From: Micromonospora matsumotoense
GTDB taxonomy: Bacteria > Actinomycetota > Actinomycetes > Mycobacteriales > Micromonosporaceae
DNA: 64,000 nt
Reading direction: 5' to 3'
Assembly: GCF_900091525.1 (NCBI RefSeq)
Contig: NZ_FMCU01000008.1
Location: 124,001-188,000, forward strand
The notes beneath the pieces were generated by a model. That model did not search any database. It saw only the letters and a list, made by a program, of their open reading frames with translations, and was not told the DNA's origin. This document shows positions 14,474 to 39,708 of the stretch, piece after piece; within the stretch, counting starts at the first letter, position 1, and each line of letters begins with the position of its first letter. The position numbers were made by a program, and so were the translations under genes.

Positions 14474-14508
14474 GTCGACGTCTCCGATCGAATGGTCTAG
14501 CCTGCAAC

Positions 14509-14527
14509 TTAGGCAAGGCTAACCTAC
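14509..14527. promoter_or_regulatory. iron box (DmdR1/IdeR-type operator)
   Basis: TTAGGCAAGGCTAACCTAC matches the actinobacterial DmdR1/IdeR iron-box consensus TTAGGTTAGGCTAACCTAA at 16 of 19 positions. It lies between the divergent S4 and DUF2470 genes, 18 bp upstream of the latter's ATG, so iron-dependent repression of one or both genes is expected. Confidence 0.75.
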
Positions 14528-14545
14528 ATTGAGGAGTTCGGGATC

Positions 14546-15280
14546 ATGCGACCCAGCCCGGCGGAGATCGTGCGTACCCTCGTCGCGGGCCGGCTGCCCG
14601 CCCTCGCCCACCTGGCCGGCAGCACCGGCCCGCACCAGGTCCGGCACGCCACCGACCCCGACGGCCGGGTGCTGCTGCTGGTGCCGGCGCTCAGCGACCT
14701 CGCCACGGCGCTCGCGCCGCCGGCCGGGGAGACCGACGTCGCCACCGCCCTCGACGTGCTCGACCTGCCGCCCACCGCCGGCGCCCCCTCGCTCGGCCGG
14801 GCCTGGGTCTCCGGCTGGGCCGAACGTCTCGACGGCGACGAGGCACGTCAGGCCGCGATGGACTTCGCCACCACCCAGCCGACCGGCGACCTGCTCGACG
14901 TGGGCAGCCGGTTCCAGCTGCACCGGTTCGAGGTGGCCGAGGCCCGCTGGGAACACACCGGCGGGATGCGCCCGATCGACCCGCAGGCGTACGCGCAGGC
15001 CGAGCCCGACCCGCTGCACGCGGCCGAGGCGGGATTGCTGGCCGACCTCGCCGACCACCACGCCGAGCAGGTCGCGGGCCACCTGCGCCGGCAGTTGAAG
15101 CTCTCCGGTGCCGAGTCGCCACGGGTGGTCCGGATCGACCGGTACGGCCTGCTGGTCGCGTACGGCCGGCCCGGTGCGACCCGACGGGCGAGGGTGAGCT
15201 TCGCGGGACCCGTCGCCGACGTCGCCGAGTTGTCCCGGCTGCTGCACCCGATGCTCTGTCCCCGGCAGGCGGCCGCCTGA
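14546..15280 (+). CDS. DUF2470-domain protein, iron-regulated
   Basis: The 244-residue soluble protein has the actinobacterial DUF2470 layout. The N-terminal part resembles a pyridoxamine-oxidase-like split-barrel segment (RVLLLVPALSDLATAL, APSLGRAWVSGWAERL), and the C-terminal DUF2470 region starts at AEPDPLHAAEAGLLADLADHHAEQ and ends at LLHPMLCP. Relatives occur in haem-utilisation contexts (HugZ-like), so a role in iron or haem handling is plausible. GAGGAG precedes ATG 14546. The upstream iron box supports iron repression. Catalytic activity is unknown. Confidence 0.75.
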   Translation: MRPSPAEIVRTLVAGRLPALAHLAGSTGPHQVRHATDPDGRVLLLVPALSDLATALAPPAGETDVATALDVLDLPPTAGAPSLGRAWVSGWAERLDGDEARQAAMDFATTQPTGDLLDVGSRFQLHRFEVAEARWEHTGGMRPIDPQAYAQAEPDPLHAAEAGLLADLADHHAEQVAGHLRRQLKLSGAESPRVVRIDRYGLLVAYGRPGATRRARVSFAGPVADVAELSRLLHPMLCPRQAAA

Positions 15281-15426: not shown

Positions 15427-16728
15427 TCAGATCGGGAGCTGCGGGCCGAGCACGGCGCCCGGGTCGTAGCGGCGCTTCACCTCCCGCCACCGCTCGACGG
15501 TGGGCCCACCGAACTGGGCCCGGTAGAAGTCCCGCTCCACCCGGTGATAGCCGTGCAGGTACTGCCGGCCGCCGAGCTCGTGACAGAGCGCGCCGGCAGC
15601 GTCGAAATGCTCCCGGTACTCGTCGACCCGGTCCGGCGGCACGATGCAGTAGAAGCCGAACGTGCGTACCCGGTCGGCGTCGGGCAGCGGACTCAACGGC
15701 GGCCGGGGCCGGTCCCCGGCACGCAGGAATGCGCCGTTGACCACCGGGACCACGGCGGGATCGGCGAACCGGTCGCGGACTCCGGCGAAGAAGGCGTCGG
15801 CCTTCGCCATCGGCAGGAAGAAGTCGCTCCACAGCCGGCGCGCCTCGGTCTCGTCCGTCAGCAGACCCGCGGCGATCTGGCCGCGGGCGATACCGACGGA
15901 GAAGCCCGCCTCCGCCTCGAACAGCCGCTGGTGATAGTCGGCGACCAGGGTCTCGTCCGACTCGGCCGCCGCGTCGCGCGCCGACCGGCCGACCTCGACC
16001 TTCCACCGGCGCGCGGCGGTGGAGTACACCGCGCGGCACAGACGCAGCCGCTCGTCAGCCCACACCTGCTCCGCCACCGTGGCGAGGTCGTCGCCGTCGA
16101 GCCGGCGGACCAGGACGGCCGGTTCCGCCGGGACCACCCGCAACTCGGCCCGGACGATCAGACCCACCTGACCGAGGCCGCAGAGCGCGTACGAGAACAG
16201 CTCCCGGTGCGGGCCGTCGGCGGTCGCGTGCACGAGTGCGCCGTCACCCGTGACGACCTCCAGGGCCACCACCTGATCGACGACCGCGCCGACGAAGGGT
16301 GACGTCGGCCCGAAGCCGCCGACCGACAGCGTCCCGCCGACCGAGGCGTGCTCGTTGCTGGTCACGACCGGCAGCGCGAGGCCGTGCTCGTGCAACCAGC
16401 GGTGCAGCGTTCCCCAGCGCACCCCGGCCTCGACGCGCACTGTCGCCGCCCCGACCAGTTCGATCCGATCCAACGCGGCGGTGTCCAACTGCAGGCCGTC
16501 GGTGAGGCTCTGCCCGTTGCTGCTGCACCCGTTGCCCCGTGCGACGACCGCCAGGCCACCGGCGAGCGCGTAGCGCACCGTCTCCTGCACGTCGGCGACC
16601 CCGGCGGCGAACACGACCGCCTGTGGCTCCTGGCAGCGGAGCCGGCCGAAGTCCCGCTGCCATCCCTCGGGTGCCGGATCGACCAGCTTCCCGGCCAGCA
16701 GCCGGGCGAGCGGTTGATGTGGCGTCAT
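15427..16728 (-). CDS. FAD-linked oxidoreductase (VAO/CKX-like)
   Basis: The 433-residue protein has an FAD_binding_4 domain (about 30-210) with the PP-loop VVARGNGCSSNGQSLTDG, then NEHASVGGTLSVGGFG, and a C-terminal BBE-like substrate domain ending in KRRYDPGAVLGPQLPI. The loop resembles cytokinin dehydrogenase (GRGHSxxGQ) but has Cys68 where the His that covalently holds FAD usually sits. It overlaps the stop of a MoeN5-like prenyltransferase by 1 bp (TGATG) and is the last gene of the minus-strand cluster. It probably oxidises the prenyl or glycerate part of the product, which is inference. ATG 16728 is chosen over a longer reading. Confidence 0.8.
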   Translation of the reverse strand: MTPHQPLARLLAGKLVDPAPEGWQRDFGRLRCQEPQAVVFAAGVADVQETVRYALAGGLAVVARGNGCSSNGQSLTDGLQLDTAALDRIELVGAATVRVEAGVRWGTLHRWLHEHGLALPVVTSNEHASVGGTLSVGGFGPTSPFVGAVVDQVVALEVVTGDGALVHATADGPHRELFSYALCGLGQVGLIVRAELRVVPAEPAVLVRRLDGDDLATVAEQVWADERLRLCRAVYSTAARRWKVEVGRSARDAAAESDETLVADYHQRLFEAEAGFSVGIARGQIAAGLLTDETEARRLWSDFFLPMAKADAFFAGVRDRFADPAVVPVVNGAFLRAGDRPRPPLSPLPDADRVRTFGFYCIVPPDRVDEYREHFDAAGALCHELGGRQYLHGYHRVERDFYRAQFGGPTVERWREVKRRYDPGAVLGPQLPI

Positions 16729-17537
16729 CAGGCGATCACCGCCGGCCGGCTGATCAGGCCCTTGAGCTTCGCCGCGAAGTGGTCGAAGAACGGCACCAGG
16801 TCGCAGACCGGGTCGCCCTGCCGCACCGCCGCGACGGCCCGGTCGCGCCACTCGTCGATCGCGGCGGCGACGTCGGCCAGGTCGGCCGCACCCGAGGCGA
16901 CCAGGTGGGCGAGGTTGCCGTCGCGCTCGCCGATCTCGTCGAAGTCGACCGCGTCGTCGCCGATCATGTACAGCACGCCCAGTGCCTCACCGAACTCCCG
17001 GGCCGCCGTCACCATCTCGGGAACCCCACCGGCCAGGCAGTTGACCGCCGCGTAATTGGCGAGCATCACCCCGGCCTTGATCCGGGCCGCCGCGATCCAG
17101 GACTCGACAGTGGTCGGTCGGGGCGCGCTGACCTCCACGATCTCCTGCCGCCAGATGTCGCGGTAGTCGTCCTCGAGCGTCCTGAGCACCTCGACCGGCC
17201 GCTGCTGGCTGGCCAGCAGTGTGGTGCCGACCGAGAGCAGTTGGACCCCGAAGATCTGGTCGCGCGGCGAGAGCGGCTGGTCGTCGTCGATGAGGTCGTC
17301 GATCAGCTTCACGCCGACCGCGTGGATGGAGACCCCGGCACCGAGGTCGGCGCGCACCCGCGGGTTGCGCACCCACAGCGTCGTGTAGTACGGCGTACGC
17401 GGGTAGCCGGGGAGGTCACGCACGAAGTCCAGTCCCTGTCGGGACATGCCCAGACTGGTCAGCTCGGCGAGACACCGTTGGACCACCCGCGCCTGGCTGT
17501 CGTCCATCTCGGCCTTGAACTCAGGAAACGTCAGCAC
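16728..17537 (-). CDS. MoeN5-like prenyltransferase A
   Basis: The 269-residue all-helical protein has an FPP-synthase-type first aspartate motif DDLIDDD at residues 80-86. A second acidic motif, GDDAVDFDE (192-200), is followed by GERDGNLAHL. This pairing and length resemble MoeN5, which in moenomycin biosynthesis joins geranyl diphosphate to a farnesyl-phosphoglycerate. Chain-length enzymes are longer and start with GGKRxRP, which is absent. It overlaps the next prenyltransferase by 17 bp. With its paralogue it could form a heterodimer or do two successive prenylations. Confidence 0.78.
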   Translation of the reverse strand: MLTFPEFKAEMDDSQARVVQRCLAELTSLGMSRQGLDFVRDLPGYPRTPYYTTLWVRNPRVRADLGAGVSIHAVGVKLIDDLIDDDQPLSPRDQIFGVQLLSVGTTLLASQQRPVEVLRTLEDDYRDIWRQEIVEVSAPRPTTVESWIAAARIKAGVMLANYAAVNCLAGGVPEMVTAAREFGEALGVLYMIGDDAVDFDEIGERDGNLAHLVASGAADLADVAAAIDEWRDRAVAAVRQGDPVCDLVPFFDHFAAKLKGLISRPAVIA

Positions 17538-18336
17538 GGTCGTCCTCCAGCAGAAAGGTGATCAGGCGGTCGGCGAAGCCGGCCATGAAGCCGGCGATCG
17601 GGAACTCCGGCGGGAACTCCGCCAGGGCGCGCAGCGCCTCCGCGCGCCACCGGCGGGTCGCCGCGACGGCCGCGTCCCGGCTCACCTGCCCGCTCCGGAT
17701 CAGGTGGCACAGGTTTCCGCCGGCCTCACCGAGGTCGCGGTGGTCACGGATGTCGTCGCCGATCATGAACAGGACACCGAACGCCTCGCAGAACGCGCGC
17801 GCGGCGGGCAGCCGCTCCACGACATCGGCGGCGAGGCAGGCGGCGGAGGCGTAACACATCATCATCCGGCCCGACTTGATGCGGGCGTAGTGGATCCAGC
17901 TGTCCAGGTCGTGGGCCGGACGTTCCGCCTCGTTGATCTGCTCCCGCCAGATCACCTCGTAGTCCTCGTCGAAGACGCGCAGCACCTCGGCCGGCCGGTG
18001 GTGGGCCCCGAAGGTCGCCGTGCTGCTCTGGGTGAGGAACATGCCGAGGATCTGGTCCCAGGGCCGGATCGGTTGGTCGCCGTCCATCAGGTCGTCGACC
18101 AGTTTGATCCCCATCGCGTGGGTGCAGATCGCGATCCCCAACTCCTGGCGCTGCACCGGGTCCGGCACCCAGAGCGAGGCGAAATACGGAATCCGCGGAT
18201 AGCCCTTCATCTGGCGGACGTACGCCACCCCGTCCGGGGTCATGCCGATCCCGGCGAGCCGGTCGGTGACCCGCTCCAGCAGGACGCGCTGCGCGACCGC
18301 CCACTCGTCGTCCAGACCGCTCACTCCGGAGAGCAC
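17521..18336 (-). CDS. MoeN5-like prenyltransferase B
   Basis: The 271-residue paralogue of the adjacent downstream gene has first motif DDLMDGD (81-87) and second motif GDDIRDHRD (193-201) followed by EAGGNLCHL. Shared blocks include GYPRIPYFASLWVPDP versus GYPRTPYYTTLWVRNP. The first motif has Gly in place of an Asp found in copy A, so metal binding may differ between copies. It overlaps the upstream glycosyltransferase by 16 bp. Substrates are unknown; a prenyl diphosphate donor and prenylated acceptor are inferred from MoeN5. Confidence 0.78.
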   Translation of the reverse strand: MLSGVSGLDDEWAVAQRVLLERVTDRLAGIGMTPDGVAYVRQMKGYPRIPYFASLWVPDPVQRQELGIAICTHAMGIKLVDDLMDGDQPIRPWDQILGMFLTQSSTATFGAHHRPAEVLRVFDEDYEVIWREQINEAERPAHDLDSWIHYARIKSGRMMMCYASAACLAADVVERLPAARAFCEAFGVLFMIGDDIRDHRDLGEAGGNLCHLIRSGQVSRDAAVAATRRWRAEALRALAEFPPEFPIAGFMAGFADRLITFLLEDDRADVS

Positions 18337-19586
18337 ATTTCCTCCTCGTCGATCCGCAGCGGCACCCCGTCGAGCACCGCGGCGACCGCGGCGACGGTCT
18401 GCCGCCGGGCCCGGTCCGGGTCGAGCAGCGTACGGGCGAGGGCCATCGCCCGGCGGCGGCGACGGGGCAGCTCATCCGGGTCGCCCACCCAGCGGACGGC
18501 GACCTCGACCAACTCCTCCATCCGGTCGAAGCCCCGGCCGACGCCGTGTTCGGCGAGGAACGGGCCGACCCACTCCTCCATCGGCAGGCCGGAGCGCACC
18601 AGCAGTTGCGGGATGCCGAAGTAGAGCCCCTCCAACATGGAGTTCGGCCCGGTCTTGGAGATGAACAGCGGCGCGTCGGCGGCGTGGAGCCAGGCCAGGT
18701 ACCGCAGGTAGTCCCCCTGGGCCAGCCGGTCGAAGGTCTGCCAGGCCGACCGACCCAGCGCGGTCAGCAGTTCGGCCGCCTCGGCGGCCAGCGCCGGGTT
18801 GTTGTACGCGATGAAGACCAGCGCCGCCTCGGGATGCGCGCGGGCGATCCGCTCCAGGGCGGCGAGATACTCCCGGCCGCCCCGGTTGGACAGGATCAGG
18901 ATCCGGGTGCCGGCCGCCGTCAACGCCGGATCGGCGGCACCGACGGCGTCGGCGTCCCCGATGCCGGCGGCGGCGCCCTCGAAGACCTGGGCGGCCTGAG
19001 CCTGGGCGAGCAGCCGGCCGACCGGCACCACCCGCTCGGGCCGGTAGCCGTGCTCGCGGACGAGATAGTCCCTGGCCCGGTCGAACTGCACCAGGTGGAC
19101 CGGCAGGTGGGGCGCCCGGTGCACCGGCAGCCGCAGCAGCCCCTCGTTGGTCACGTAGTTGACCACCGGGGTCGGCAGGTCCGCGATCCGCAGCGCGGCG
19201 TGGCTCAGCCGGGAGATCACCCCCTTGGTGCCGATCACCAGGTCCGGTTTCGTCTGGGCGAAGTGGTCGGCGACGGGTGCCAGCCGATCGACGGTCGCCG
19301 CGGGCAGCGGGTCGTCGTCCAGGCCCGCCGGTAGCCGGTCGGTGAAGTCCGTCATGAGGCGCAGGTATCCGGCCCACACCTCGTCGGCGGGCAGCCGGGC
19401 CGCCACCAGCTCACGAATGGCGGCACCGGCCTCGGCGAACTGCGGGAAGAGCGTCTCCGCCTCGACGACGGTGACCTCCGCATCGTCCAGACCGGCGGCC
19501 AGGGTCGCGGCGAGCGTCCGGCCGGCGAGGAGATTCCCCAGCTCACCCCAGGTGCGCATCGAGATGACCTGCACGCTGCGGGTCAT
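18321..19586 (-). CDS. MurG/MGDG-synthase-like glycosyltransferase
   Basis: The 421-residue GT-B-fold protein has an N-terminal acceptor half (GELGNLLAGRTLAATL; VVEAETLFPQF; LVIGTKGVISRLSHAAL) and a C-terminal donor half (ILILSNRGGREYLAALERI; LFISKTGPNSMLEGLYFGIPQLLV). The latter matches MurG, diacylglycerol galactosyl/glucosyl transferases and related lipid glycosyltransferases that use UDP-sugars. Start ATG 19586; the longer reading to 19952 runs into the upstream gene. It probably glycosylates the cluster's prenyl lipid at the membrane. Confidence 0.78.
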   Translation of the reverse strand: MTRSVQVISMRTWGELGNLLAGRTLAATLAAGLDDAEVTVVEAETLFPQFAEAGAAIRELVAARLPADEVWAGYLRLMTDFTDRLPAGLDDDPLPAATVDRLAPVADHFAQTKPDLVIGTKGVISRLSHAALRIADLPTPVVNYVTNEGLLRLPVHRAPHLPVHLVQFDRARDYLVREHGYRPERVVPVGRLLAQAQAAQVFEGAAAGIGDADAVGAADPALTAAGTRILILSNRGGREYLAALERIARAHPEAALVFIAYNNPALAAEAAELLTALGRSAWQTFDRLAQGDYLRYLAWLHAADAPLFISKTGPNSMLEGLYFGIPQLLVRSGLPMEEWVGPFLAEHGVGRGFDRMEELVEVAVRWVGDPDELPRRRRRAMALARTLLDPDRARRQTVAAVAAVLDGVPLRIDEEEMCSPE

Positions 19587-19614
19587 GCCCACTCCCTCCG
19601 TCGCGCTCGTGGTG

Positions 19615-21744: not shown

Positions 21745-22550
21745 AGGTCGGTCCGTTCCTTTCGCAGCAGGCTCGCGCGGCGGGCGGTGTACTTGTCGTT
21801 GTTCCAGATCTCCTCGATGGTGTTGTCGTTGACGTTGCCCATGACCTCCTGCACGCTCCAGTCCTGGCAGCACAGGACCACCCGGCCGTCCTGGGTGATG
21901 TAGAACTCGTTGAACGGCCGTACGCAGAACTGGTTGAGCAGCACGGTGGGACGGCCCAGCACGTTGCCGGCGCGGTTGGTGAGGGTGGCGTCCGGATCGC
22001 GGTCGACCAGCACCAGCTCGGGCCGGGCCGGATACCGGCGGACCTTTTCCAGCACCGACAGGTCGGTGGTGTAGTCGTTGACGACGACGGTGGCGTACCG
22101 GGTCAGCTCGTCGGCCAGTTCCTCGGTGAGCTTGGAGCCATTGGTCTGGATGGAGATCGACGCCTTGGTGCGCTCCTTGGCCATCCGCACCATCGCGGGC
22201 AGCCGCCGGTCCAGCAGCGGCTCGTTGAACAGGTACGGGTGAATGACGCCGGTGAAGTCGGCGAGCTGGTCGAGCAGCGACTCGTAGAGCTCCATCGACA
22301 TCTGGCCGGACGGCATCTTGAGGGTGCCGATGGGGCAGAACGAGCAGCGGTAGTTGCAGCCGCTCATCGTCTCGATCGCGATCATGCTGAACTGCGGTGG
22401 CGTACGGCTGGACTTCTGCTTGAGCCAGGCGGCGTCGCTGAGCGCCTTGGTTCCGGTGCCGTGGAAGTAGGTGCGGGACACTCCGCTGAGCACGTTGAGG
22501 ACACCTTTGCCCTGTGCGCGCTGCTTGATGTACTTCGCGATGTCTGTCAT
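21714..22550 (-). CDS. radical SAM/SPASM-domain protein
   Basis: The 278-residue protein has the radical SAM CxxxCxxC cluster (C65, C69, C72 in GCNYRCSFC), conserved FNEPLLD and SIQTNGSKL segments, and a C-terminal SPASM-type auxiliary cluster region (C209, C227, C228, C270, C273). Such enzymes generate a 5'-deoxyadenosyl radical for difficult C-H chemistry. ATG 22550 has GAGGGGAA upstream. It lies between the GT2 gene (4-bp overlap) and the PcrB-like fusion. A step on the lipid or sugar is likely; a peptide substrate is not seen nearby. Confidence 0.82.
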   Translation of the reverse strand: MTDIAKYIKQRAQGKGVLNVLSGVSRTYFHGTGTKALSDAAWLKQKSSRTPPQFSMIAIETMSGCNYRCSFCPIGTLKMPSGQMSMELYESLLDQLADFTGVIHPYLFNEPLLDRRLPAMVRMAKERTKASISIQTNGSKLTEELADELTRYATVVVNDYTTDLSVLEKVRRYPARPELVLVDRDPDATLTNRAGNVLGRPTVLLNQFCVRPFNEFYITQDGRVVLCCQDWSVQEVMGNVNDNTIEEIWNNDKYTARRASLLRKERTDLCAKCDFPGI

Positions 22551-23743
22551 GCGCGTTCCCCTCGGGAGATCTTGGGAGACAACGGGACCGACGAGGCCGT
22601 TGGTTTGGCGTGCTGGGTGTAGGCCGACCACGGGATCTCACGCCGGGGCCGGCCGGCGACGCCGCGTACTGCGAGCCCCAGTGCCACCCGTGAGAACCAG
22701 CCGAAATGGATCGATTTGAGCAGCCACTTCTTGGCCGCGAAGTGGAGGCCCTGGCCCCGGGCTGCGGGCGCCAGTGGCCACAGCCCGTAGAAGTACATGC
22801 GCCAGTACCGGCCGGCGACGTCGGCGGGGAAGTCGGCCATCAGCACCGCCGCGGTCAGCAGCGAGCGGTTGACGCGGCGTCTGATCTCGCCGGCCGGTCC
22901 GCCGGTCAGGTGGTAACTCACGGCGTCCGCGACGATGTGCGTGCGGTGCAGCGGGTTGTCGTGCCGGGGGTCGAGCAGCGCGAAGCAGAAGTAGTCGTCC
23001 TCGCAGGTGTAGCGGTCCGGGATGCCACGGGCCACGAGTTCGGCGTCGATCACCATGCAGCAGCCGTGCGGGTAGCCGAACTTCGGCGTCTTGGTGATCT
23101 GCTTGCCCCGGTGCAGCAACCGGGCCGCCGCGTACGGGTTGGGCTGGGGCACCTTGCTCGCCCCGGCCGAGCCCCGCGCGCCCCGGTCGAGGAAGTCCTC
23201 CAGCAGCCGTCCGATGCAGCCGGCGCTGAACGTCACGTCGTCGTCGACCCACGCCACGCCCGCCAGGCCGAGGCCGGTGGCCACCTCGAACGCGGCGTTG
23301 AGCATGCGACTCTTCCCGGCCTGCGGCATCGCGATCCCGACGAAGGTGAGCCCGCTCCGGGAGGCAGCGATCTCGCTCAGCTGCCCCAGCCGCGCGATCG
23401 CCTCGTCGTGCTGGTCGTCGCGCCACTGCATGCCGACGACCAGCACCAGTGGGCGGGCGGCCACCGTCGGTGGGAGGTCGGTGAGCTGGGTGACGAGTTC
23501 CTCGACGGTCTCGCGGTGGCTCGACAGCGGCGCCCGGCCCACGTAGGTCGGCAGGACCAACGCCAGCCCGCCGCCGAAGCCGTCGCCGAGTTCCGCGGCG
23601 ACCGCCGGGACCGCCGTCGCGGCCCGGACACCGGCCGGACCGGGACGAACCACGATGCACTCCGTGGGCGGTGGATCGCCGTCGGCGGGCTGGTAGCCGC
23701 GCCGGATCGCCCACCGGACGGGCCGGGTCAGAAGCTCGAGCAT
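22547..23743 (-). CDS. GT2-like glycosyltransferase
   Basis: The 398-residue GT-A-type protein has VAWVDDDVTFS (DxD at 167-169), an acidic TCEDDYFCF motif at about 250 and a basic, membrane-associating C-terminal region rich in Trp/Arg. The N-terminal ~55 residues precede the nucleotide-binding start (LALVLPTYVGR). GGAGGAA precedes ATG 23743; a longer upstream reading is a shadow. It is the gene after the exporter pair and is coupled to the radical SAM gene. It probably adds a sugar to the lipid intermediate. Confidence 0.75.
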   Translation of the reverse strand: MLELLTRPVRWAIRRGYQPADGDPPPTECIVVRPGPAGVRAATAVPAVAAELGDGFGGGLALVLPTYVGRAPLSSHRETVEELVTQLTDLPPTVAARPLVLVVGMQWRDDQHDEAIARLGQLSEIAASRSGLTFVGIAMPQAGKSRMLNAAFEVATGLGLAGVAWVDDDVTFSAGCIGRLLEDFLDRGARGSAGASKVPQPNPYAAARLLHRGKQITKTPKFGYPHGCCMVIDAELVARGIPDRYTCEDDYFCFALLDPRHDNPLHRTHIVADAVSYHLTGGPAGEIRRRVNRSLLTAAVLMADFPADVAGRYWRMYFYGLWPLAPAARGQGLHFAAKKWLLKSIHFGWFSRVALGLAVRGVAGRPRREIPWSAYTQHAKPTASSVPLSPKISRGERA

Positions 23744-23760
23744 CGGTTCCTCCGCATGGG

Positions 23761-25536
23761 TCAGTCGGTGGCTACGGCGGACCAGAGCCGGCGTATCTCG
23801 TCGGAGCTCTCCAGCAGGTCGTCCAGGGCTCCGACCGCCTCCAGCCGGCCGTCGCGCAGGACCACGACGAGGGCGGCCCGGCGCAGCACCTCGGGCCGGT
23901 GGGACACCGCCAGCACCGTGCTCCCGCCGTCGCGCAGGATCCCGTCCCACAGGGCTTCGCTCGTCGGGGGATCGAGTGCGCTGGAGACGTCGTCGCACAG
24001 CACCAGCGGGGTGCGGCGGACGAGCATCCGTGCCACGGCCACCCGTTGCGCCTGGCCACCGGACAGGCGGAGCCCACGAGGCCCGATCACCGTGTCGAGC
24101 CCGTCGGCCATCGCCGTCAGGTCGGCGTCGAGGGCCGACCGGGACACCGCCTCGCCCAGCCGGTCGTCCGGCAGCCCGAGCAGGATGTTCTCCCGGATCG
24201 TGCCGGTGAACAGTCGAGGCACCTGCGGCGTGTACGCACACCGGGGCGGCACGAGCACCGCCCGACGGTCCGCGGGCAACGGGACGTCGTCCCAGCACAC
24301 CTCGCCGGTGGCACCCGGCAGTTGGCCGAGCAGGGCGCGCAACAGTGTGGTCTTGCCCGAGCCGACCTGGCCCACCACGACGGTCAGCCGGCCGGCCGGC
24401 ATCGTGAACCCGATGCCGGACACCCCGTTGGCGGCGCCCTCGTGCCGGGCGGTGAGGTCGGTGACCGTGATCGTCGGCGGGCCGCCGGCGGGCGGCGGGG
24501 GCGAGCGGCGCGGCGAAAGGTTGATCATGGAACCGGGCCGGGCGTGGTCGAGGTCCATCCCGTGCCGGGGGTGCAGGCGGCCACCCGTGATCGCGGTCAT
24601 CCGGCGCAGCGCGACGAGCACCCGCTGCAACTGGACGGTGAGCACGCCGAGCGAGGCGAGCGTGTCGACGAGCAACTGCAGGTAGAAGGTGAACAGCACC
24701 ATGTCGCCGATGGACAGCCGGTTGCTGCTGATGGCCGGTGCGGCGATCAGCAGCACGATGCCGGTGCCGAGCGGGGCGGCGTTCAGCAGGGTGCTGCGCT
24801 GCACCGCGACCGCGAGTTCCTCGGAGATGGCGACCCTGGCCCGAACGGCGTTGAGCGCGTCGAGACGCCGGCCGACCGCATCCTCGGCGCACGCGGCCTG
24901 CACGCCCAGCGCCACCCCCATCACCTCGCGCAGCGCCTCGCTGACCAGTGCGGTCTGGGCGCGGCTCTGCTCGCGGTAGGCCATCATCCGCCGGTGCACC
25001 AGGCGCATCACCGCCACGATCACGACGAACAGCCCGAGGATGCTCAGGGTGATGAGCACGTCGATGCGCAGCATGATGGTGATCGCGGCGACCGCGAACA
25101 CCCAACGGGCGATGTTGATGGGCGACCACACCACGAAGAAGCCGGCGTCCGCGGCGTCGGCGCCGACGGTCGCGACCGCCTCGCCCGCGCTGGTGTGTCC
25201 GGCCTCCGGTGGGGGGTCGATCAGCGACTCGAAGAGCGACAGCCGCAACGCACCGACGGTGTGGTACTGCATCCGCGGTTCGAGCCACGGCACGACCGTG
25301 CTGAACTGCAGGGAGATGCGCGCGGCCTCGATGCCGGCGACGAGTGCGACGAGAGTCCACAGGTTCAGGCCGGCGGCCGACTCGCCGCTGAGGGAGTCGA
25401 AGGCCACCTGCATCAGCAGCCCCAGGGCCAGCATGCCCAGCCGCAGCACCGCCCACACGGCGGCGAGCACGGCGTAACGCCGGCCACGGCCGGCCAACAG
25501 CAGGCGTGCCCGGGCGCCTCTGGTCGTCGTGGCCAC
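23761..25536 (-). CDS. ABC exporter subunit with degenerate Walker B (heterodimer half 1)
   Basis: The 591-residue type-I exporter has six membrane segments and one NBD: Walker [10 protein letters not shown], signature [17 protein letters not shown]-loop AVSHRPEVL. Walker B reads [12 protein letters not shown], so the catalytic Glu is Asp. This is typical of the degenerate half of heterodimeric exporters. GTG 25536 is one base past the stop of the partner gene; GTG 25581 is an alternative. Together with the 579-residue partner it probably exports the glycolipid product. Confidence 0.83.
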
Positions 25537-25537
25537 G

Positions 25538-27277
25538 TCAGGACCGCCCGGCGGGGAACAGCCGGGCGGCTGTCTCGTCACTGCCGCCCGTCAGCTCGGA
25601 CCGGGGCGCCAGGCGGACGACCCGGCCGTCCTCGACCACCATCACGTCGTCGACGATGGAGAGCGTCTCGGGCCGGTGGGCGATGATGAGCGCGGTACGA
25701 CCCTCGATGAACCTCTCCATCGTTCGGCGCAGCCGCCGCTCCGCGTGCGGGTCGAGCCGGGCCGACGGCTCGTCGAGCAGCACGATGTCGGGGTCGGTCA
25801 GCAGTGCCCGGGCCAGTGCGAGCAACTGCTCCTCACCGGCGGACAACCCCGCTCCGCCTGGCCCGATCCGCGTGTCGAGGCCGTCGGGCAGGGCGGCGTA
25901 CCAGGTGTCCAGACCGACCTCCTCGACCGCCCGGCGCAGTTGCTCGTCGGGCCACCGGTCGTCGAAGAAGGTGAGGTTGTCCCGCAGGGTGGCCGCGATG
26001 ACGTGCACGTCCTGGGTGACGAGCGTGATGCGGGAGCGCAGCGCGGCGACGTCCAACTGCCGGACGTCCACGCCGCCGATCGAGACCGAGCCGGCCTGCG
26101 GGTCGTACTGGCGGAACAGCATCCGTAGGATGGTCGACTTGCCGCCGCCGCTGCGTCCGACCAGCGCGACCCGCCGGCCCGCCGCGATCGTGAACGACAC
26201 GTCCGACAGCACCGGGCGTTCGTCGTAGGCGAAGGTGACGCCGGTGAAGCTCACCGCGCCGCGGCCCGGCGGGAGGGTGCCACCGCCGTCGGGGACGATG
26301 TGGGCCTCGCCGAACAGTTCCTCGATGCGGCGGACGCTGCCCAGGACGTTCTCCATGTCCTGGAAGCGTGAGGTGATACTGACCAGGGGCATCCGCAGCA
26401 GGATCGCGTACGACAGGCCGGCGAAGACGGTGCCGACGCTGGCGCCCCGGTGCTGGCTGAGCCACACACCGGTGGCCAGTGCCGTACAGAGGTTGACGGC
26501 GGTGAGCGCCTGGACCGCCGCCGGCCAGGTGACCGTGGCCCGGGCGGCGCGGCGGGCCAGCCGGTAGTGGTGCAGGATCCGTTGCCAGGCGCCCTCCAGG
26601 GCGTGCGCCGTCCCGCCGTTGGCGTTGAGGTCCTCCCGCCCGGTCAGGTTCTCCTCCAGATAGCCGAGCAGGCTCGCCTCCGCCCGCTGGCGGTCGGCGA
26701 TGAGCGGCACCGCGCGACCGAGCAGGCGTCGCAGCAGGAGCAGCATCACCACCGCGAGCGGGGTGAAGAGCACGCCGTAGCGCCAGTCGAGCAGGAACAG
26801 CGCCACGACGATGCCGATGATCAGCAGCAGTTGGACGGCGATGTCGAGCACCAACTCGGACAGGAGCTTGGCCAACCGGGTGACGTCGCCGTCCATCCGG
26901 TCGACCAGTTCCCCGGGCGGGTGCCGGAGGAAGAACTTCGGCCCCTGCCGCAGGACGTGCGCGAGCAGGTCGCGGCGCACCCCGTTGGTCGTACGCCAGG
27001 CGACCCGGCCGGAGACCCAGCCGGTGCCGACCGACAGCACCTGCCGTACGACTGCGAGCACCACGAAGACCATGGCGTACCCGGCCAACTCGCCCTGTGG
27101 CCGGCCGCCCACCGCCGCATCGATGAACCGGCGTACGACCTGGGGCGCCACCAACTGGGTGCCGACGTCGAGCGGTATCAGCGCGGCCAGCAGCAGGAAC
27201 CAGCGCCGGTGACTGCGGACGTAGCCCACATAGCGTGCCCAGTTCGTCTCGGCTGTCCGCGGCTCGGGGGACGCCAT
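25538..27277 (-). CDS. ABC exporter subunit (heterodimer half 2)
   Basis: The 579-residue type-I exporter subunit has six transmembrane helices, Walker [10 protein letters not shown], Walker [12 protein letters not shown] (canonical Glu) and H-loop IIAHRPETL. Its signature is [15 protein letters not shown] rather than LSGGQ. The altered signature would face the degenerate ATP site of the partner, so the two form one consensus and one non-consensus site, as in TM287/288-like heterodimers. Start ATG 27277 lies 4 bp after the isomerase stop. Probable job: export or flip the cluster's lipid product. Confidence 0.83.
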
Positions 27278-27281
27278 CTGG

Positions 27282-27869
27282 TCAGCCGTGCCCGGCGACT
27301 GCGACCCGGGCTGCGGGTGGCAGCTCGGCGGCGTCGCCGGTGGACCACCGGCCCGGCACAGGTCCGATCCCGGCCAGCTCGTCGACCTGCAACCGGCACC
27401 ACGGCGAGAGGGTCCCGTCGGTCCGGGTCCGGTCCCGGAACGAGTCCCAGTCGACCCACTCGACCCGGTCCACCTCGTCCGGGTTCGGCACTGGTTCGTC
27501 CGCTGCCCGGGCCACGTAGACGGGGCACATCTCGTTCTCGACCACACCGTCGAGTTCGGCCCGGTAGCGGAAGCGGGGCAGCACCAGACGGAGGTCGCTC
27601 AGCGTGAGGCCCAGCTCGGCGGACGCCCGTCGGTGGACGGCGTCGGTCATCGGCTCACCTGGGCCGGGATGGCCGCAGAAGCTGTTGGTCCATATACCTG
27701 GCCACGTCTTTTTCCGCAACGAACGGCGCGACATTAGGAACTGCCCGCTATTGCTGAAGACGTAACAGGAGAATGCGAGATGCAGCGGCGTGTCGCCGTC
27801 GTGAACGATGCGTTTGTCCTGCTCACCGACGGCTTGGCCATCGTGGTCGAGTAGCACGACCAACTCCAT
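27282..27869 (-). CDS. idi: isopentenyl-diphosphate delta-isomerase, type I
   Basis: The 195-residue Nudix-fold enzyme interconverts isopentenyl and dimethylallyl diphosphate. Seen: active-site Cys65 in NSFCGHP, the acidic pair in ENEMCPVY (Glu111/Glu113), WTNSF and the metal-binding His residues. GGGGGAG precedes ATG 27869. It begins the minus-strand operon, divergent from a prenyl diphosphate synthase, so it supplies the C5 donor for the cluster. The first exons of sequence are less GC-rich than the neighbours. Confidence 0.9.
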   Translation of the reverse strand: MELVVLLDHDGQAVGEQDKRIVHDGDTPLHLAFSCYVFSNSGQFLMSRRSLRKKTWPGIWTNSFCGHPGPGEPMTDAVHRRASAELGLTLSDLRLVLPRFRYRAELDGVVENEMCPVYVARAADEPVPNPDEVDRVEWVDWDSFRDRTRTDGTLSPWCRLQVDELAGIGPVPGRWSTGDAAELPPAARVAVAGHG

Positions 27870-28213
27870 ACCGCTCCCCCACCATCCGGATCGGTCAATT
27901 TCGCTCGCACAACAATCCACTGCGAATCGACTCCAGTCAACCCCCTAGAGGAACAAAACGCCCACACGGGAAATTGCGGATGCGCGAAGTAGGGGGCGCC
28001 GGATCTCCACGGATCGGTTACAGTTGATGCTCAACCAGCCACGGGGGGTCACGTAAGTGCGGGCCCATCCGGCCCTTCGTTATTACTGACAGTGACCATT
28101 TTCCGTCGACGTCCGGCGCGTTCTGCCGCATTCAGCCTGCGCGATCGTTCACCCGGCGGCACCGGACACCGGTGACCTGCCGTCAAAGTCGCCCTCGATC
28201 GGACGGAGGACAG
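27870..28213. promoter_or_regulatory. divergent promoter region of the terpenoid-glycolipid cluster
   Basis: This 344-bp gap separates the isomerase (minus) from the prenyl synthase (plus) and must hold promoters for both arms. It is AT-richer than its surroundings (for example GAACAAAACG, TTATTACTGACAGTG). No single promoter or operator stands out enough to mark; no ORF of note. Confidence 0.5.
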
Positions 28214-29299
28214 ATGACCGCCACCAGCGAGACCACCCGAGGCGTGCCCGGCCTCGCCGGGCCCGCGCTCAGAGCCGAGGTGGAGCGCACGATCGACAGC
28301 TTCCTGACCGCCCGGCGGGACATGGACACCACCCCCGAGTGGCGCGACGGGGTCGACGCCCTCCGCGCCCTGGCACTCGCCGGAGGTAAGCGCACCCGAC
28401 CGACGTTCTGCTGCCTGGGTTGGCGCGCGTTCGGCGGCGGGGATCACCCCGGCATCGTCGTGGCCGCCACGGCGCTGGAACTGTTCCACCTCTTCGCCCT
28501 GGTGCACGACGACATCATGGACGACAGCGATGTCCGGCGGGGGAACCCGACGTTGCACGTGACGATGGCCGAGGCACACCGCCGGCTCGGCTGGCGTGGC
28601 AACCCGGAACACTACGGCCGCAACACGGCGATCCTCTGGGGCGACCTCTGCCTGGCCTGGTCAGACGAGGCTTTCCACGGCTGCGGTCTGGCACCGGAGC
28701 GGGTGTCGGCGGCGGCCGGGTTGCTCCACCGCATGCGCGTCGAGGTGCTGCTCGGGCAGTACCTCGACATCCGCGGCGAGGCTGTCCGGGCAGACCTGAC
28801 CGACTGCCTGACGATCCTGCTCTACAAGTCGGCGAAATACACCGTGGAGCGCCCGCTGCAGATCGGCGCGATGCTGGCCGGCGCGGCCCGACCCGACGTG
28901 GAACGGCTCTCCGGCTTCGGCGTCCCGATCGGTGAGGCATTCCAGCTGCGCGACGACGTCCTCGGTGTCTTCGGCGACGACGCCGTCACCGGCAAGTCGA
29001 TCCTGACCGACCTGCGCAGCGGGAAGTCCACCGTACTCATGGCGCTGACCCGCGAGCGGGCGAACGCCACCCAGGCCGCCGAGATATCCCGGTGGCACGG
29101 CAACCCGGGCCTCGGCGAGCGGGAAGCACAACGGCTGCGGCACATCGTGCGGGACACCGGCGCACTGCGGACGGTCGAGGAGATGATCCACGCCCGCACC
29201 CAAGAGGCGGTGGCGGTGCTCGACTCCCTGCCCATCGTCGGGGAGGTGCGGGTGGCGCTGACCGAGCTGGCCCACACGCTGTCGGTCCGACGCAGCTGA
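28214..29299 (+). CDS. polyprenyl diphosphate synthase
   Basis: The 361-residue class I prenyltransferase has GGKRTRPTFC at residues 58-67, first aspartate motif DDIMDDSD (99-106) and second motif region QLRDDVLGVFGDD (245-257), with KSAKYT and GKSILTDLRSGKST. It makes a prenyl diphosphate (likely farnesyl or geranylgeranyl class; the residues just before the first motif, ELFHLFALVHDD, decide chain length but are not decisive here). ATG 28214 with GGAGGA upstream. It supplies the donor to the PcrB- and MoeN5-like enzymes. Confidence 0.9.
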   Translation: MTATSETTRGVPGLAGPALRAEVERTIDSFLTARRDMDTTPEWRDGVDALRALALAGGKRTRPTFCCLGWRAFGGGDHPGIVVAATALELFHLFALVHDDIMDDSDVRRGNPTLHVTMAEAHRRLGWRGNPEHYGRNTAILWGDLCLAWSDEAFHGCGLAPERVSAAAGLLHRMRVEVLLGQYLDIRGEAVRADLTDCLTILLYKSAKYTVERPLQIGAMLAGAARPDVERLSGFGVPIGEAFQLRDDVLGVFGDDAVTGKSILTDLRSGKSTVLMALTRERANATQAAEISRWHGNPGLGEREAQRLRHIVRDTGALRTVEEMIHARTQEAVAVLDSLPIVGEVRVALTELAHTLSVRRS

Positions 29300-29343
29300 G
29301 AGTCCACCCTGCACGCACGTCCCACGACCAGGAGGGCACGGGA

Positions 29344-30291
29344 ATGACGGTTCACAACCCCCGGCGCACGGTGCTGGTGACCGGTGCCGCCGGGTTCATC
29401 GGGCGACACCTGGTCGAGCACCTGAGCAGCCGGGACCACACGGTGATCGGTGTCGACCTGCGCCAGGCGCCGCCCCGGCCGGCAAACGCGGCAGCCGGCC
29501 GGCACATCGTCGCCGACCTGCGCACCACGGACATCCGCCCGCTGCTCGACGGGGTCTCCTCGGTGGTCCATCTCGCCGCGCTGCCCGGGGTGCGGCCGTC
29601 GTGGGATCGCTTCGACGACTACGTCGAATCCAACGTGCTCGTCACCCGGCGGCTCCTGGAGGCGGGTGCGCAGACCGGTCTACGACGGCTGGTCATCGCC
29701 TCATCGTCCAGCGTCTACGGCAACCAGCGGGACGGGGCGATGAACGAGGACCAACCGCCCGCCCCGATCTCCCCGTACGCGGTCACCAAACTGGCTGCGG
29801 AACACCTCGCGCTGGCCTACGCGGCCCGCCCTGCCTCCGTGCTGACCACCATGGCCCTGCGGTTCTTCACCGTCTACGGCCCCCGGCAACGGCCCGACAT
29901 GCTGATCTCGCGGATCATCTCGGCGGTCCGGGACGGCCGGGAGATCCGGGTGTTCGGCGACGGATCGCAGCGTCGCGACTTCGTCTTCGTCAAGGACGCG
30001 GTGCGCGCGGTGACGGCGGCCATCGACGCGCCGGGCCCGAGCCGCGTATGCAATGTCGGCACCGGTGAGCAGATATCGGTCACCGGGATCATCGCGCTGA
30101 TCAGTGAGCTGATGGGCCGCCCGGCGAACGTCCGGACCGAACCCCACCGGGCAGGTGACGTGGTGTCCACGCGTGCCGACACCGCCCGCACGGCCGAGGC
30201 GCTCGGCTTCCGCGCGTCGGTCTCCCTGCGGGAAGGGCTCCGGGAGCACATCGACGCGGTACGCAGCGAGTCAATGCCCGTCGGCGCCTGA
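29344..30291 (+). CDS. NAD-dependent nucleotide-sugar epimerase/dehydratase
   Basis: The 315-residue extended SDR has the NAD-binding GAAGFIG (14-20), catalytic YAVTK (Tyr145-Lys149), the SSSVYG segment and an RxR-type end. The sequence resembles UDP-glucuronate/UDP-glucose 4-epimerase-like proteins, and an epimerase of this type acts in moenomycin sugar supply. It starts 44 bp after the prenyl synthase and overlaps the next GT2 gene by 1 bp (TGATG). Exact sugar unknown. Confidence 0.82.
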   Translation: MTVHNPRRTVLVTGAAGFIGRHLVEHLSSRDHTVIGVDLRQAPPRPANAAAGRHIVADLRTTDIRPLLDGVSSVVHLAALPGVRPSWDRFDDYVESNVLVTRRLLEAGAQTGLRRLVIASSSSVYGNQRDGAMNEDQPPAPISPYAVTKLAAEHLALAYAARPASVLTTMALRFFTVYGPRQRPDMLISRIISAVRDGREIRVFGDGSQRRDFVFVKDAVRAVTAAIDAPGPSRVCNVGTGEQISVTGIIALISELMGRPANVRTEPHRAGDVVSTRADTARTAEALGFRASVSLREGLREHIDAVRSESMPVGA

Positions 30292-31088
30292 TGGGCCGGG
30301 GACCCGTGCTGACCGTCATCGTGCCGCACTTCCGCTGCGCCACCTACCTGGCGGAGTCGGTCGCCTCCGTACTCGGGCAGACCCATCGGGACCTGCGGCT
30401 CGTGGTCGCCGACGATCACTCGCCGGACGACGACTGGATCACCGCCCTCGCACCGTGGCGGGACGATCCGCGGCTGACGCTGCTGCGTGCGTCGCGCAAC
30501 GTCGGGCCGCTGCGGCTGAAGAACGCCGTGGTCGAGTCGGTCTCCACGCCGTACATCGGCTTCCAGGATGCCGACGACGTGAGCGAACCCGACCGCTTCG
30601 CCCGCCAGCTTGCCGTGCTGGAACGGGGCCGCGCCGATCTGGTCGGCTGCGGCTACCGCATCATCGATGCGCGGGGCAACCCGCAGGGGGTACGGCACAT
30701 GCCGCGCAACGGCAACCTGGTGCACCGGTTCGGCCGCAAGACGGTCGCGCTGCATCCGGCGACGGTCGTGCGCCGCGAGGTCTTCACCCGACTCAACGGC
30801 TTCGACGGCACCGCGGCATTCGGTTCCGACACCGACTTCCAGCTGCGGGTCGCCTGGCTCTACCGGATTCGCAACCTGCGCAGGCCGCTCTATCGCTACC
30901 GTGCCTGGGCGGCCTCGCTGACCGCAGCCCCGGAGACCGGCTTCGGATCACCCGCCCGGGACGAGTGCATGCGGCGGATGGCCGAGTTGGAGCAGCGCCG
31001 CCGCCAGGCGCGCAGCCGCGCGGATCGGCTCCCGTTGCTGGTGGCACCGCCCAACGACGTGTCGTTCGCGCTGCACGAGGTGGCGTGA
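30291..31088 (+). CDS. GT2 family glycosyltransferase
   Basis: The 265-residue GT-A protein has the N-terminal nucleotide-binding segment LTVIVPHFRCATYLAESVASVLGQT, a DxD motif (FQDADD, D93/D95) and a GSDTDFQLR motif typical of the GT2 catalytic base region. Coupled to the epimerase, so it probably uses that sugar. A strong bidirectional terminator follows 5 bp later, ending the plus-strand arm. Confidence 0.85.
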   Translation: MGRGPVLTVIVPHFRCATYLAESVASVLGQTHRDLRLVVADDHSPDDDWITALAPWRDDPRLTLLRASRNVGPLRLKNAVVESVSTPYIGFQDADDVSEPDRFARQLAVLERGRADLVGCGYRIIDARGNPQGVRHMPRNGNLVHRFGRKTVALHPATVVRREVFTRLNGFDGTAAFGSDTDFQLRVAWLYRIRNLRRPLYRYRAWAASLTAAPETGFGSPARDECMRRMAELEQRRRQARSRADRLPLLVAPPNDVSFALHEVA

Positions 31089-31092
31089 GTCC

Positions 31093-31122
31093 GCTGCGGG
31101 CGTGGTGCGCCACGCCCGCAGC
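31093..31122. terminator. bidirectional terminator between GT2 and ABC permease
   Basis: GCTGCGGGCGTGG (31093-31105) pairs perfectly with CCACGCCCGCAGC (31110-31122) around a 4-nt loop, between convergent genes. Confidence 0.75.
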
Positions 31123-31129
31123 GTCGCCC

Positions 31130-31828
31130 CTACTGCACGGCCGCCCTGATCTGCATGTGCTTGCGCCGCCGTAGCCGCACACCCGCCAGCACCGCCGTGA
31201 CCAGCATGAGGCCGATGCAGTACAGGGCACCGTGCAGCAGGCCCTTGCGCAGGAATTCCGGGTCACCACCGTCGAGGCCGTAGAGCCCCACCTGCTGAGT
31301 CGACCAGAACGGCAGGGCCTTGCCGAGCTTCTGCTCCGGATCGACCAGGAACTGCAACCCGGTGATCGAGATCAGGACGAGCGTGCCCTCCAGATCGTGT
31401 GGGGCCACGGCGCTGATCAGCAGGCCCAGCGGGGCAGCAATCACGATCGTGAGCCCGAACTCGATGGCGACGGCGCCGGGCCGCTGCAACGTGTCCTGGT
31501 CGACGTAGATGAGCACCCAGTACACCGCGGCGAGCACGGCACCCAGCGTCAGCAGCGCGGTGAGCGTGCCGAGGTAGAGGTGCGCCGGCCGATAGCCGAT
31601 TTGGCGTAGCCGCCGCTCCACCGCCTTTGTGGTGTTGCTCAGGAACAACCCGGCCGTGCTCACCGCCCAGGCCAGACCCAGGCCGGCGAAGCGAATCGCC
31701 TTTTCCGGATTGGCGTCGTGCCGGGCGATGTAGAACAGCAGTGGTACGAACGCGAGCAGCGCGAGGGCTACCCGCCGCCGGGCGAGGTCCCGACCCATCA
31801 TCTCCGCAACGGTGAAGAGCTTGGTCAT
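31130..31828 (-). CDS. ABC transporter membrane protein
   Basis: The 232-residue protein has six hydrophobic segments and no NBD. It follows the ATP-binding gene with ATGA overlap, so the two form an ABC-2-like transporter. It sits at the edge of the cluster and may export or provide resistance to the product. Family name not recognised beyond the arrangement. Confidence 0.7.
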   Translation of the reverse strand: MTKLFTVAEMMGRDLARRRVALALLAFVPLLFYIARHDANPEKAIRFAGLGLAWAVSTAGLFLSNTTKAVERRLRQIGYRPAHLYLGTLTALLTLGAVLAAVYWVLIYVDQDTLQRPGAVAIEFGLTIVIAAPLGLLISAVAPHDLEGTLVLISITGLQFLVDPEQKLGKALPFWSTQQVGLYGLDGGDPEFLRKGLLHGALYCIGLMLVTAVLAGVRLRRRKHMQIRAAVQ

Positions 31829-32505
31829 GAGTCGGCGGCCGCCTTCGCTCCGAGGTCGAGAACGGCGTCGACCCGATCGAGTGAATTCAACATGTGGGTG
31901 ATGACGAGGGTCGACTTGCCGGCGTCGCGCCGCTGTAACACCCAGTCCCAGAAGTCGACGTAACTGCCCCGGTCGAAACCCTGATAGGGCTCGTCGAGGA
32001 GGAGGATGTCGGGGTCGGAAAGCGCCGCGAGAATGAGGTTGAGCTTCTGCTGGGTGCCACCGGACAGGTGCCGGGCCTGCGTCGACATGCCGCCGTCCCA
32101 GGCCAGGCTCTTCGCGAGCTGCCGGCCGGTCGCCTGGGCCTCGCCCCGGCTCATCCCGTGCCCGGCACCGAACAATGCGAAGTGTTCGTCGGCGGTCAGG
32201 AAGCCCATGAGCCCGGCCTGCTGGGGGCAGTAGGCCATGCTCTCGTCCACTTCCACCACACCGCTGGACGGGCTGACCAGACCCGCGCAGATCTTCATGA
32301 GCGTCGACTTGCCGCAGCCGTTGGCGCCGATGATGGCGACCACCTCGCCGGCGCGTACGGTGAGGTCGACACCCTTCAGGACGTGATTCTTGCCGTACCG
32401 CTTGTGAATGTTCGAAGCATGGAGTCGAATCGGTGTCGACGAGTCACCCTCCGCTGGACCGGGCCTGGTAGCCGTCACTTCCGAAGCGGTGTCACTCAGA
32501 TCCAT
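31825..32505 (-). CDS. ABC transporter ATP-binding protein
   Basis: The 226-residue NBD has Walker A GANGCGKST, signature HLSGGTQQKLNLILAAL, Walker B LLLDEPYQGFD and H-loop ITHMLNSLD. The N-terminal ~25 residues are disordered. It is paired with the 6-TM protein downstream (ATGA overlap). The signature with Thr-Gln is typical of ABC-2 exporters. It is probably part of the cluster, for product export or self-resistance. Confidence 0.82.
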   Translation of the reverse strand: MDLSDTASEVTATRPGPAEGDSSTPIRLHASNIHKRYGKNHVLKGVDLTVRAGEVVAIIGANGCGKSTLMKICAGLVSPSSGVVEVDESMAYCPQQAGLMGFLTADEHFALFGAGHGMSRGEAQATGRQLAKSLAWDGGMSTQARHLSGGTQQKLNLILAALSDPDILLLDEPYQGFDRGSYVDFWDWVLQRRDAGKSTLVITHMLNSLDRVDAVLDLGAKAAADS

Positions 32506-39680: not shown

Positions 39681-39708
39681 CGGGTCACCGCCCGACTGCT
39701 GACCCGGC

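Follow-up and report, generated by a model that had tools for sequence, protein, structure and literature searches.

Gene content and organization

The window, a 64,000-nucleotide stretch of Micromonospora matsumotoense DNA (contig NZ_FMCU01000008.1, positions 124,001 to 188,000), contains a cluster of 15 genes that extends over about 17 kilobases (kb), from position 15427 to 32505. As judged from its genes, the cluster very probably belongs to the moenomycin (moe) family of phosphoglycolipid clusters. It encodes a MoeO5-type synthase, MoeN5-type prenyltransferases, a MoeE5-like epimerase together with moe-type glycosyltransferases (GTs), and two ATP-binding cassette (ABC) transport systems. 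The genes F5, K5 and M5 of moenomycin proper are absent from it, and a flavin adenine dinucleotide (FAD) oxidase is fused to the MoeO5 domain.

A tightly packed run of genes, several of its junctions overlapping, occupies the minus strand from 27869 down to 15427 in the order IDI, two ABC half-transporters, GT2a, radical S-adenosylmethionine (SAM) enzyme, MoeO5-FAD fusion, MoeGT1-like glycosyltransferase, MoeN5A, MoeN5B and FADox2, the second FAD oxidase. It is adjoined on the plus strand by the genes of a prenyl diphosphate synthase, the epimerase and GT2b, after which comes a minus-strand pair for an ABC permease and ATPase (Table 1). The gene models are based on the guanine-plus-cytosine (GC) content of the codon positions, on start sites and on overlaps. 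An open reading frame of 1008 amino acids (aa) at 19615-22641 was rejected because its first ~300 residues have the wrong codon-position GC, as was one of 358 aa at 22638-23714, in which it is wrong throughout. The real genes of this part are thus those of the 709-aa fusion, the radical-SAM enzyme and GT2a. The sole TTA codon among the 15 genes lies in the ABC ATPase gene; in Streptomyces ghanaensis, by contrast, TTA codons are placed in moeO5 and moeE5 by an excerpt of PMC3814723.

An earlier note, made from the letters of the DNA, had named two MoeN5-like prenyltransferases, a PcrB/MoeO5-like domain, an IDI, a prenyl diphosphate synthase, a radical-SAM enzyme, three glycosyltransferases, one epimerase and two ABC transporters. 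All of these were recovered, the IDI as an IDI-like NUDIX protein and the transporters as two systems with four polypeptides. The two FAD oxidases it listed are also present, with the correction that one of them shares a single polypeptide with the MoeO5 domain. The limits it gave coincide with the extent common to three Micromonospora loci.

Table 1. Genes of the cluster, with positions in the window and the principal match of each product
Feature	Position	Strand	Evidence
FADox2, second FAD-binding (VAO/PCMH-type) oxidase, 433 aa	15427..16728	-	Pfam FAD_binding_4 E 2.6e-30
MoeN5B, MoeN5-like prenyltransferase, 269 aa	16728..17537	-	PDB MoeN5 E 1.3e-26; Asp-rich motifs DDLID, DDAVD
MoeN5A, second MoeN5-like prenyltransferase, 271 aa	17521..18336	-	PDB MoeN5 E 3.1e-22; Asp-rich motifs DDLMD, DDIRD
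MoeGT1-like glycosyltransferase (GT-B/GT28-like)	18321..19586	-	38-41% to MoeGT1-position gene in 8 moe/tch-type loci
MoeO5-FAD oxidase fusion, 709 aa	19615..21744	-	residues ~1-262 MoeO5-like, ~290-709 FAD oxidase
Radical-SAM/SPASM (twitch) enzyme, BtrN-like, 278 aa	21714..22550	-	Pfam SPASM E 2.7e-15, Radical_SAM E 1.2e-11
GT2a, GT2-family glycosyltransferase, nearest MoeGT4-position gene	22547..23743	-	Pfam Glycos_transf_2 E 4.1e-5
ABC exporter half-transporter 2 (moe-type pair)	23761..25536	-	Pfam ABC_tran/ABC_membrane; 44-48% in 6/8 loci
ABC exporter half-transporter 1 (moe-type pair)	25538..27277	-	Pfam ABC_tran/ABC_membrane; 45-51% in 6/8 loci
IDI-like NUDIX protein (isopentenyl diphosphate isomerase-like)	27282..27869	-	Pfam NUDIX E 6.3e-18; IDI reading from sequence and context
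Short-chain prenyl diphosphate synthase	28214..29299	+	Pfam polyprenyl_synt E 1.7e-47; 55-57% in two tch-like loci
MoeE5-like UDP-glucuronate/galacturonate 4-epimerase	29344..30291	+	PDB MoeE5 6kv9 E 1.7e-81, next best 2.5e-59
GT2b, GT2-family glycosyltransferase, MoeGT2-type	30291..31088	+	Pfam Glycos_transf_2 E 2.2e-22; 59-72% in 7/8 moe/tch-type loci
ABC transporter permease (moeP5-like)	31130..31828	-	44-55% in 7/8 moe/tch-type loci
ABC transporter ATPase (moeX5-like)	31825..32505	-	Pfam ABC_tran E 2e-25; 57-63% in 7/8 moe/tch-type loci

Comparison with moenomycin and teichomycin loci

Eleven loci were compared by tblastn. Besides the window these are 40-kb stretches from two genomes of the same genus (G048 and G669) and eight loci from outside Micromonospora. 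Three of the eight, from another genus of the family, resemble the teichomycin A1 (tch) cluster (G552, G553 and G521, a 9.4-kb contig); the others are of Streptomyces type (S. clavuligerus pCLA1, G915, G1075, G962 and G1039 (20-kb stretch only; genus taken as Streptomyces)). The moe cluster of S. clavuligerus, described as syntenous with that of S. ghanaensis in an excerpt of PMC3814723, was compared directly, S. ghanaensis only through PDB entries, and the tch cluster of Actinoplanes teichomyceticus only through the tch-like loci. Pfam confirms the carbamoyltransferase (M5), B12 radical-SAM (K5) and asparagine-synthase-type (F5, H5) genes of S. clavuligerus.

The window resembles the moe clusters of S. 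ghanaensis/viridosporus and S. clavuligerus in its MoeO5, MoeN5, MoeE5, MoeGT1-, GT4/5- and GT2-type genes and in its two ABC systems, and shares moe-type genes with tch; four transporter genes are reported for both moe and tch in the available part of PMC6804068. Genes of the GT1, MoeO5 and GT2a types are present in all eleven loci, and the GT2b type in ten, in one of which (G669) it is broken; only the short contig of G521 is without it. The epimerase has MoeE5 as its nearest match, and the S. clavuligerus moe cluster holds counterparts of all three glycosyltransferases (38-61% identity). The view that the cluster has no moenomycin sugar genes and no recognisable moenomycin glycosyltransferases, as held in the earlier note, was therefore mistaken; what is missing are the decoration genes. 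Given the MoeE5-like epimerase, the moe-type glycosyltransferases and the two moe-type transporter systems, a non-moenomycin glycolipid cluster is rejected. The gene content does support the other part of the proposal, a new prenyl-ether (phospho)glycolipid with a MoeO5/MoeN5 core and additional oxidative and radical enzymes.

The MoeGT1-like protein has no Pfam match of its own. In favor of its name, its match and that of H5 overlap in G915 and G1075, just as MoeGT1 and H5 are reported to do in S. ghanaensis (PMC8778134, in part). GT2a is 40-43% identical to GT4-type and 35-40% to GT5-type genes, and on similarity alone GT4 is favored. The tree is unrooted and has three groups only, so that a strict orthology of GT2a with MoeGT4 was not accepted and the timing of the MoeN5 duplication cannot be read from it. 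MoeN5A and MoeN5B, each of which has both Asp-rich motifs, are 44% identical to each other.

The genes for an amidotransferase (F5), a B12 radical-SAM methyltransferase (K5) and a carbamoyltransferase (M5) occur in all eight loci from outside the genus, those at the ends of the G521 contig only in part, and are missing from all three Micromonospora stretches, where the same queries were used. Full-length H5 is present in five of the eight; MoeH5, which attaches the C5N unit, has no match in the window or in any of the three Micromonospora stretches (the rest of the genome, and the C5N genes, were not searched). Each of the eight has two genes of the GT4/GT5 type and each Micromonospora locus one. 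Relative to the moe cluster the window thus lacks F5, H5, K5, M5 and the second GT4/5-type gene, and adds the MoeO5-FAD fusion, FADox2, the BtrN-like enzyme, IDI, the prenyl synthase and a second MoeN5. FADox2, IDI and the radical-SAM enzyme are found in all three Micromonospora loci and in none of the eight others. MoeN5 is double in the three, single in seven of the eight, and not on the G521 contig. The prenyl diphosphate synthase is shared with G552 and G553 (two of the eight), which are 55-57% identical to the window in this protein and 70-72% in GT2b; the tch-like loci carry F5 (52-56%), K5 (79-80%), M5 (63-64%), a GT5-type gene and, next to moeO5, a gene for a cyclase-like protein, all of which the window lacks.

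This last gene encodes a protein of ~342 aa resembling squalene-hopene cyclases (G553, L035:16090-17118; Pfam E 7e-8). It adjoins moeO5 in six of the eight loci (G553, G552, G521, G915, G1075 and G1039), while S. clavuligerus, G962 and the three Micromonospora loci gave no match. The protein could cyclise the lipid; to our knowledge, no role has been established for it.

The divergence of the shared genes was gauged by setting the identity of the window to S. clavuligerus and to G553 against the identity between these two. MoeN5 (A) is the most diverged (30/31% against 50), followed by GT1 (39/39% against 54), GT2a as a GT4-type gene (40/42% against 54) and MoeO5 (40/40% against 46). MoeE5 (51/61 against 52), the GT2-type gene (61/70 against 65) and the half-transporters (48/45 against 46 and 48/45 against 48) are not clearly below this yardstick. 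By this measure the divergence is greatest in the enzymes predicted to handle the lipid and the first sugars, with MoeO5 only slightly below the yardstick; the pattern is not clean.

The MoeO5 domain and its fusion to an oxidase

The MoeO5 structure 3vk5 matches residues 19-262 of the fusion (E 1.6e-52, PDB), and the FAD_binding_4 model its oxidase part (E 3.6e-21, Pfam). The comparison with MoeO5, MoeN5 and PcrB that had been proposed as a check was run here: MoeO5 and MoeN5 both match, and an origin in unrelated families was not borne out. The Pfam PcrB model also matches directly (29.9 bits, cut-off 23.9). A genome-wide search of the same assembly with this model (E<=0.001) gave no match, which counts against the PcrB label.

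The fusion is a single open frame of 709-711 aa in all three Micromonospora genomes, and none of the eight other loci has a FAD-oxidase match adjoining MoeO5. A search of open-licence papers found none describing such a protein. In a tree of eleven MoeO5 sequences the three Micromonospora domains form a branch of their own. Leu replaces Tyr201 in all three; according to PMC13096315, this is one of two tyrosines by which MoeO5 holds the farnesyl chain in place.

The FAD oxidases and the radical-SAM enzyme

The two FAD oxidases belong to the VAO/PCMH type, and each forms a tight Micromonospora branch in the FAD tree. FADox2 is 89-90% identical in the two other Micromonospora, and IDI 88%. The fused domain keeps the motif RGSGHS, the histidine of which is commonly the carrier of covalent flavin; FADox2 has RGNGCS. 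The oxidases resemble cytokinin dehydrogenase, DprE1 and EncM in the FAD-binding half, whereas the substrate half is hardly recognisable, and the fusion to MoeO5 sets one of them apart.

Residues 44-274 of the 278 in the radical-SAM enzyme align with BtrN of the butirosin pathway (E 1.6e-28, PDB). The CxxxCxxC motif is shared, as are the auxiliary-cluster cysteines up to LCAKC, the last column shown pairing CAKCD with CKNCN. The pathways of the two enzymes differ. An excerpt of PMC9012708 states that the Aux cluster of BtrN is ligated by four cysteines and that the enzyme performs a two-electron oxidation of 2-deoxy-scyllo-inosamine. With the limit loosened to E 1e-3, the radical-SAM query also picks up 72 residues of K5 in all three tch-like loci (E 1.7e-4 to 7.9e-4), a match that is read as superfamily kinship.

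Distribution and limits of the cluster

The distribution was assessed in overlapping samples of the known genomes. The MoeO5-domain query matched six of 354 genomes of the family, three of the six being of the fusion type; one of 394 genomes of the class, which is the window's own; and four of 392 genomes of a Streptomyces-like genus, where the frames (281-439 aa) are all too short for a MoeO5-FAD fusion. It also matched one locus among the contigs of close relatives and three plasmid records, all of S. clavuligerus. The radical-SAM query (E 1e-6) matched three of 374 genomes of the class, two of them only partially (E 4.4e-9 and 2.6e-7, fewer than 100 residues). No description of the cluster was found in the titles and abstract openings of open-licence papers; in PMC11960110, the title of which names Micromonospora, phosphoglycolipid is a polar-lipid label in the part available.

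The cluster adjoins the rpsD and DUF2470 genes in the window and in G048; the G669 stretch contains neither. Five other genomes were examined out of 17 with a DUF2470 match. All five have DUF2470 without cluster orthologues within 20 kb, the only similar genes being ABC paralogues (27-36%), and three have an rpsD match beside it. The existence of relatives with DUF2470 and no cluster points to a cluster that is mobile as a whole, with natural boundaries at 15427 and 32505.

Predicted product and alternative explanations

The cluster probably directs the synthesis of a phosphoglycolipid that is undecorated and oxidised, the oxidation taking place at the end formed by the lipid and the first sugar, which in moenomycin carries the decorations. 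Prenyl diphosphates would come from IDI and the prenyl synthase, and the MoeO5 domain would attach the prenyl chain to 3-phosphoglycerate or a closely similar acceptor. The MoeGT1-like enzyme may then place a MoeE5-derived hexuronic acid on the phosphate of prenyl-phosphoglycerate, to which GT2a would add an amino sugar and GT2b a terminal sugar. The MoeN5 pair would extend or branch the lipid, once or twice, and export would be the task of both transporter systems. Two-electron oxidations of alcohols to a ketone, aldehyde or acid are expected of the BtrN-like enzyme and both FAD oxidases. These would most likely occur at the lipid/first-sugar end, the site of the amide, methyl and carbamoyl groups of moenomycin, with the fused FAD domain most likely acting on prenyl-phosphoglycerate or on its first glycoside while this passes to the next step. 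The predicted product is a short, undecorated, oxidised phosphoglycolipid with an altered lipid, and the groups added by F5, K5 and M5 in moenomycin should be absent from it. We infer its oxidation sites, its lipid and its target from the genes; inhibition of cell-wall transglycosylases is possible.

Several observations count against this prediction. Similarity in the FAD oxidases is confined almost entirely to the FAD-binding half and thus does not constrain their substrate. Cytokinin dehydrogenases, moreover, oxidise a prenyl-bearing carbon and not a sugar. The AlphaFold models of both oxidases are poor (mean predicted local distance difference test scores 42.5 and 43.1, from four-sequence alignments). 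In the MoeO5 domain, 42 of the 96 positions that are invariant in the eight other sequences are changed in at least one Micromonospora sequence, the remaining 54 being kept, and its substrate may therefore differ. The divergence pattern is weakened by the ABC permease (44/55 against 54) and ATPase (57/59 against 61), which are also partly below the yardstick, and by the MoeO5 gap of only 6 points. GT2b is broken in G669, so its sugar is not always added. The labels GT4, GT5 and GT2 rest on gene order, and the other gene names follow moe usage.

A different division of labor, which is rather improbable but has some weight, is that both FAD oxidases abstract an allylic hydride from the prenyl chain, giving a desaturated, cyclised or aldehyde lipid, and that only the BtrN-like enzyme acts on a sugar. 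Cytokinin dehydrogenases, which abstract a hydride at the allylic carbon of isopentenyladenine, are the best PDB matches of FADox2 (E 1.2e-21), of the fused domain (E 4.5e-17) and of a joint profile of six sequences (E 1.1e-38). The fused domain belongs to the same protein as the enzyme by which the prenyl chain is first handled, and among the shared genes MoeN5 has diverged most. However, these matches lie mainly in the half common to sugar and lipid oxidases, and DprE1, the substrate of which is a polyprenyl-phospho-sugar, comes close behind for FADox2 (E 6.3e-19) and is second with the joint profile (E 7.8e-26), which matches almost only over the FAD-binding half. It is far less probable that the MoeO5 domain uses glycerol-1-phosphate, like bacterial PcrB, to form an archaeal-type membrane ether glycolipid. 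One phosphate-site loop is GGGV, close to the GGGI of the aligned geranylgeranylglyceryl phosphate (GGGP) synthase, where other MoeO5 have SGNV or SGGV; a second loop is VVGN instead of FAGA, in which we presume a likeness to PcrB, the aligned GGGP synthase having VTGT. The family is shared, but the best GGGP synthase match (E 1.9e-9) is 43 orders of magnitude weaker than that to MoeO5, and the Glu of the YLE stretch, which has a role in GGGP synthase, is Leu here. The moe-type neighbors and the rarity of the fusion type, in three of 354 family genomes, also weaken this membrane-lipid alternative, which the earlier note had entertained. Furthermore, TchO5 likewise lacks Asn230 and yet restores moenomycin (PMC13096315).

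That ordinary moenomycin is made, with the decoration enzymes encoded elsewhere in the genome, is very unlikely. The moe genes of S. ghanaensis were cloned as two separate clusters, according to an excerpt of PMC6804068, and the M. matsumotoense genome has several asparagine-synthase paralogues. Its assembly, in 57 contigs and rated 100% complete, nevertheless gave no match to the carbamoyltransferase (M5). For K5 the best match (E 1.9e-6) reaches 31% over part of the protein and is not an orthologue, K5 of S. clavuligerus being 79-80% identical to that of the tch-like loci. For F5 there are only paralogues, the main matches being 32-38% identical against 52-56% in the tch-like loci. In the eight other loci, searched with tblastn, these queries do recover their targets. 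There is equally little reason to regard the cluster as decaying or silent, an explanation that we consider most improbable. GT2b is frameshifted and truncated in G669, around position 27247-27517 of its joined stretch (L031 7247-7517), and S. clavuligerus is reported to make no detectable moenomycin in the excerpted text of PMC3814723. Against this, dN/dS (nonsynonymous to synonymous substitution) between the window and G048 or G669 is 0.08-0.33 in the genes compared, 0.24-0.31 in the halves of the fusion, indicating purifying selection, and the other 14 of the 15 genes are open over the compared spans in the three species. G669 is a natural variant, the product of which probably lacks one sugar.

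An undecorated phosphoglycolipid oxidised at the lipid/first-sugar end remains the preferred prediction. A bolder version of it, possible but on balance doubtful, is that the MoeO5-FAD fusion makes prenyl-phosphoglycerate and at once oxidises it, giving rise to a branch of oxidised phosphoglycolipids with a lipid/first-sugar core chemically unlike that of moenomycin. The product, lacking the carbamate and carboxamide of moenomycin, would then bind some other target, or peptidoglycan glycosyltransferases in a novel manner. With its scaffold genes kept, its decorations missing and its lipid/first-sugar enzymes strongly changed, the cluster may be a source of new scaffold variants. The fusion is amenable to an early test, given the published moeO5-null strain dO5 of S. 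viridosporus, in which MoeO5 activity was read by bioassay and mass spectrometry (PMC13096315).

Surroundings of the cluster

At 13865-15280 of the window the rpsD (S4) gene adjoins the DUF2470 gene. A gene for an Imm7 immunity protein (33354-33749, Pfam E 5e-47) flanks the cluster at its ABC-ATPase end in the window and at its FADox2 end in G048. Farther away, a lytic polysaccharide mono-oxygenase of the LPMO_10 family is encoded at 35625-36305 (Pfam E 2.7e-43), and at 39039-43820 the gene for a sigma-70 region 2 protein is divergent from that for a TPR-CHAT domain protein.

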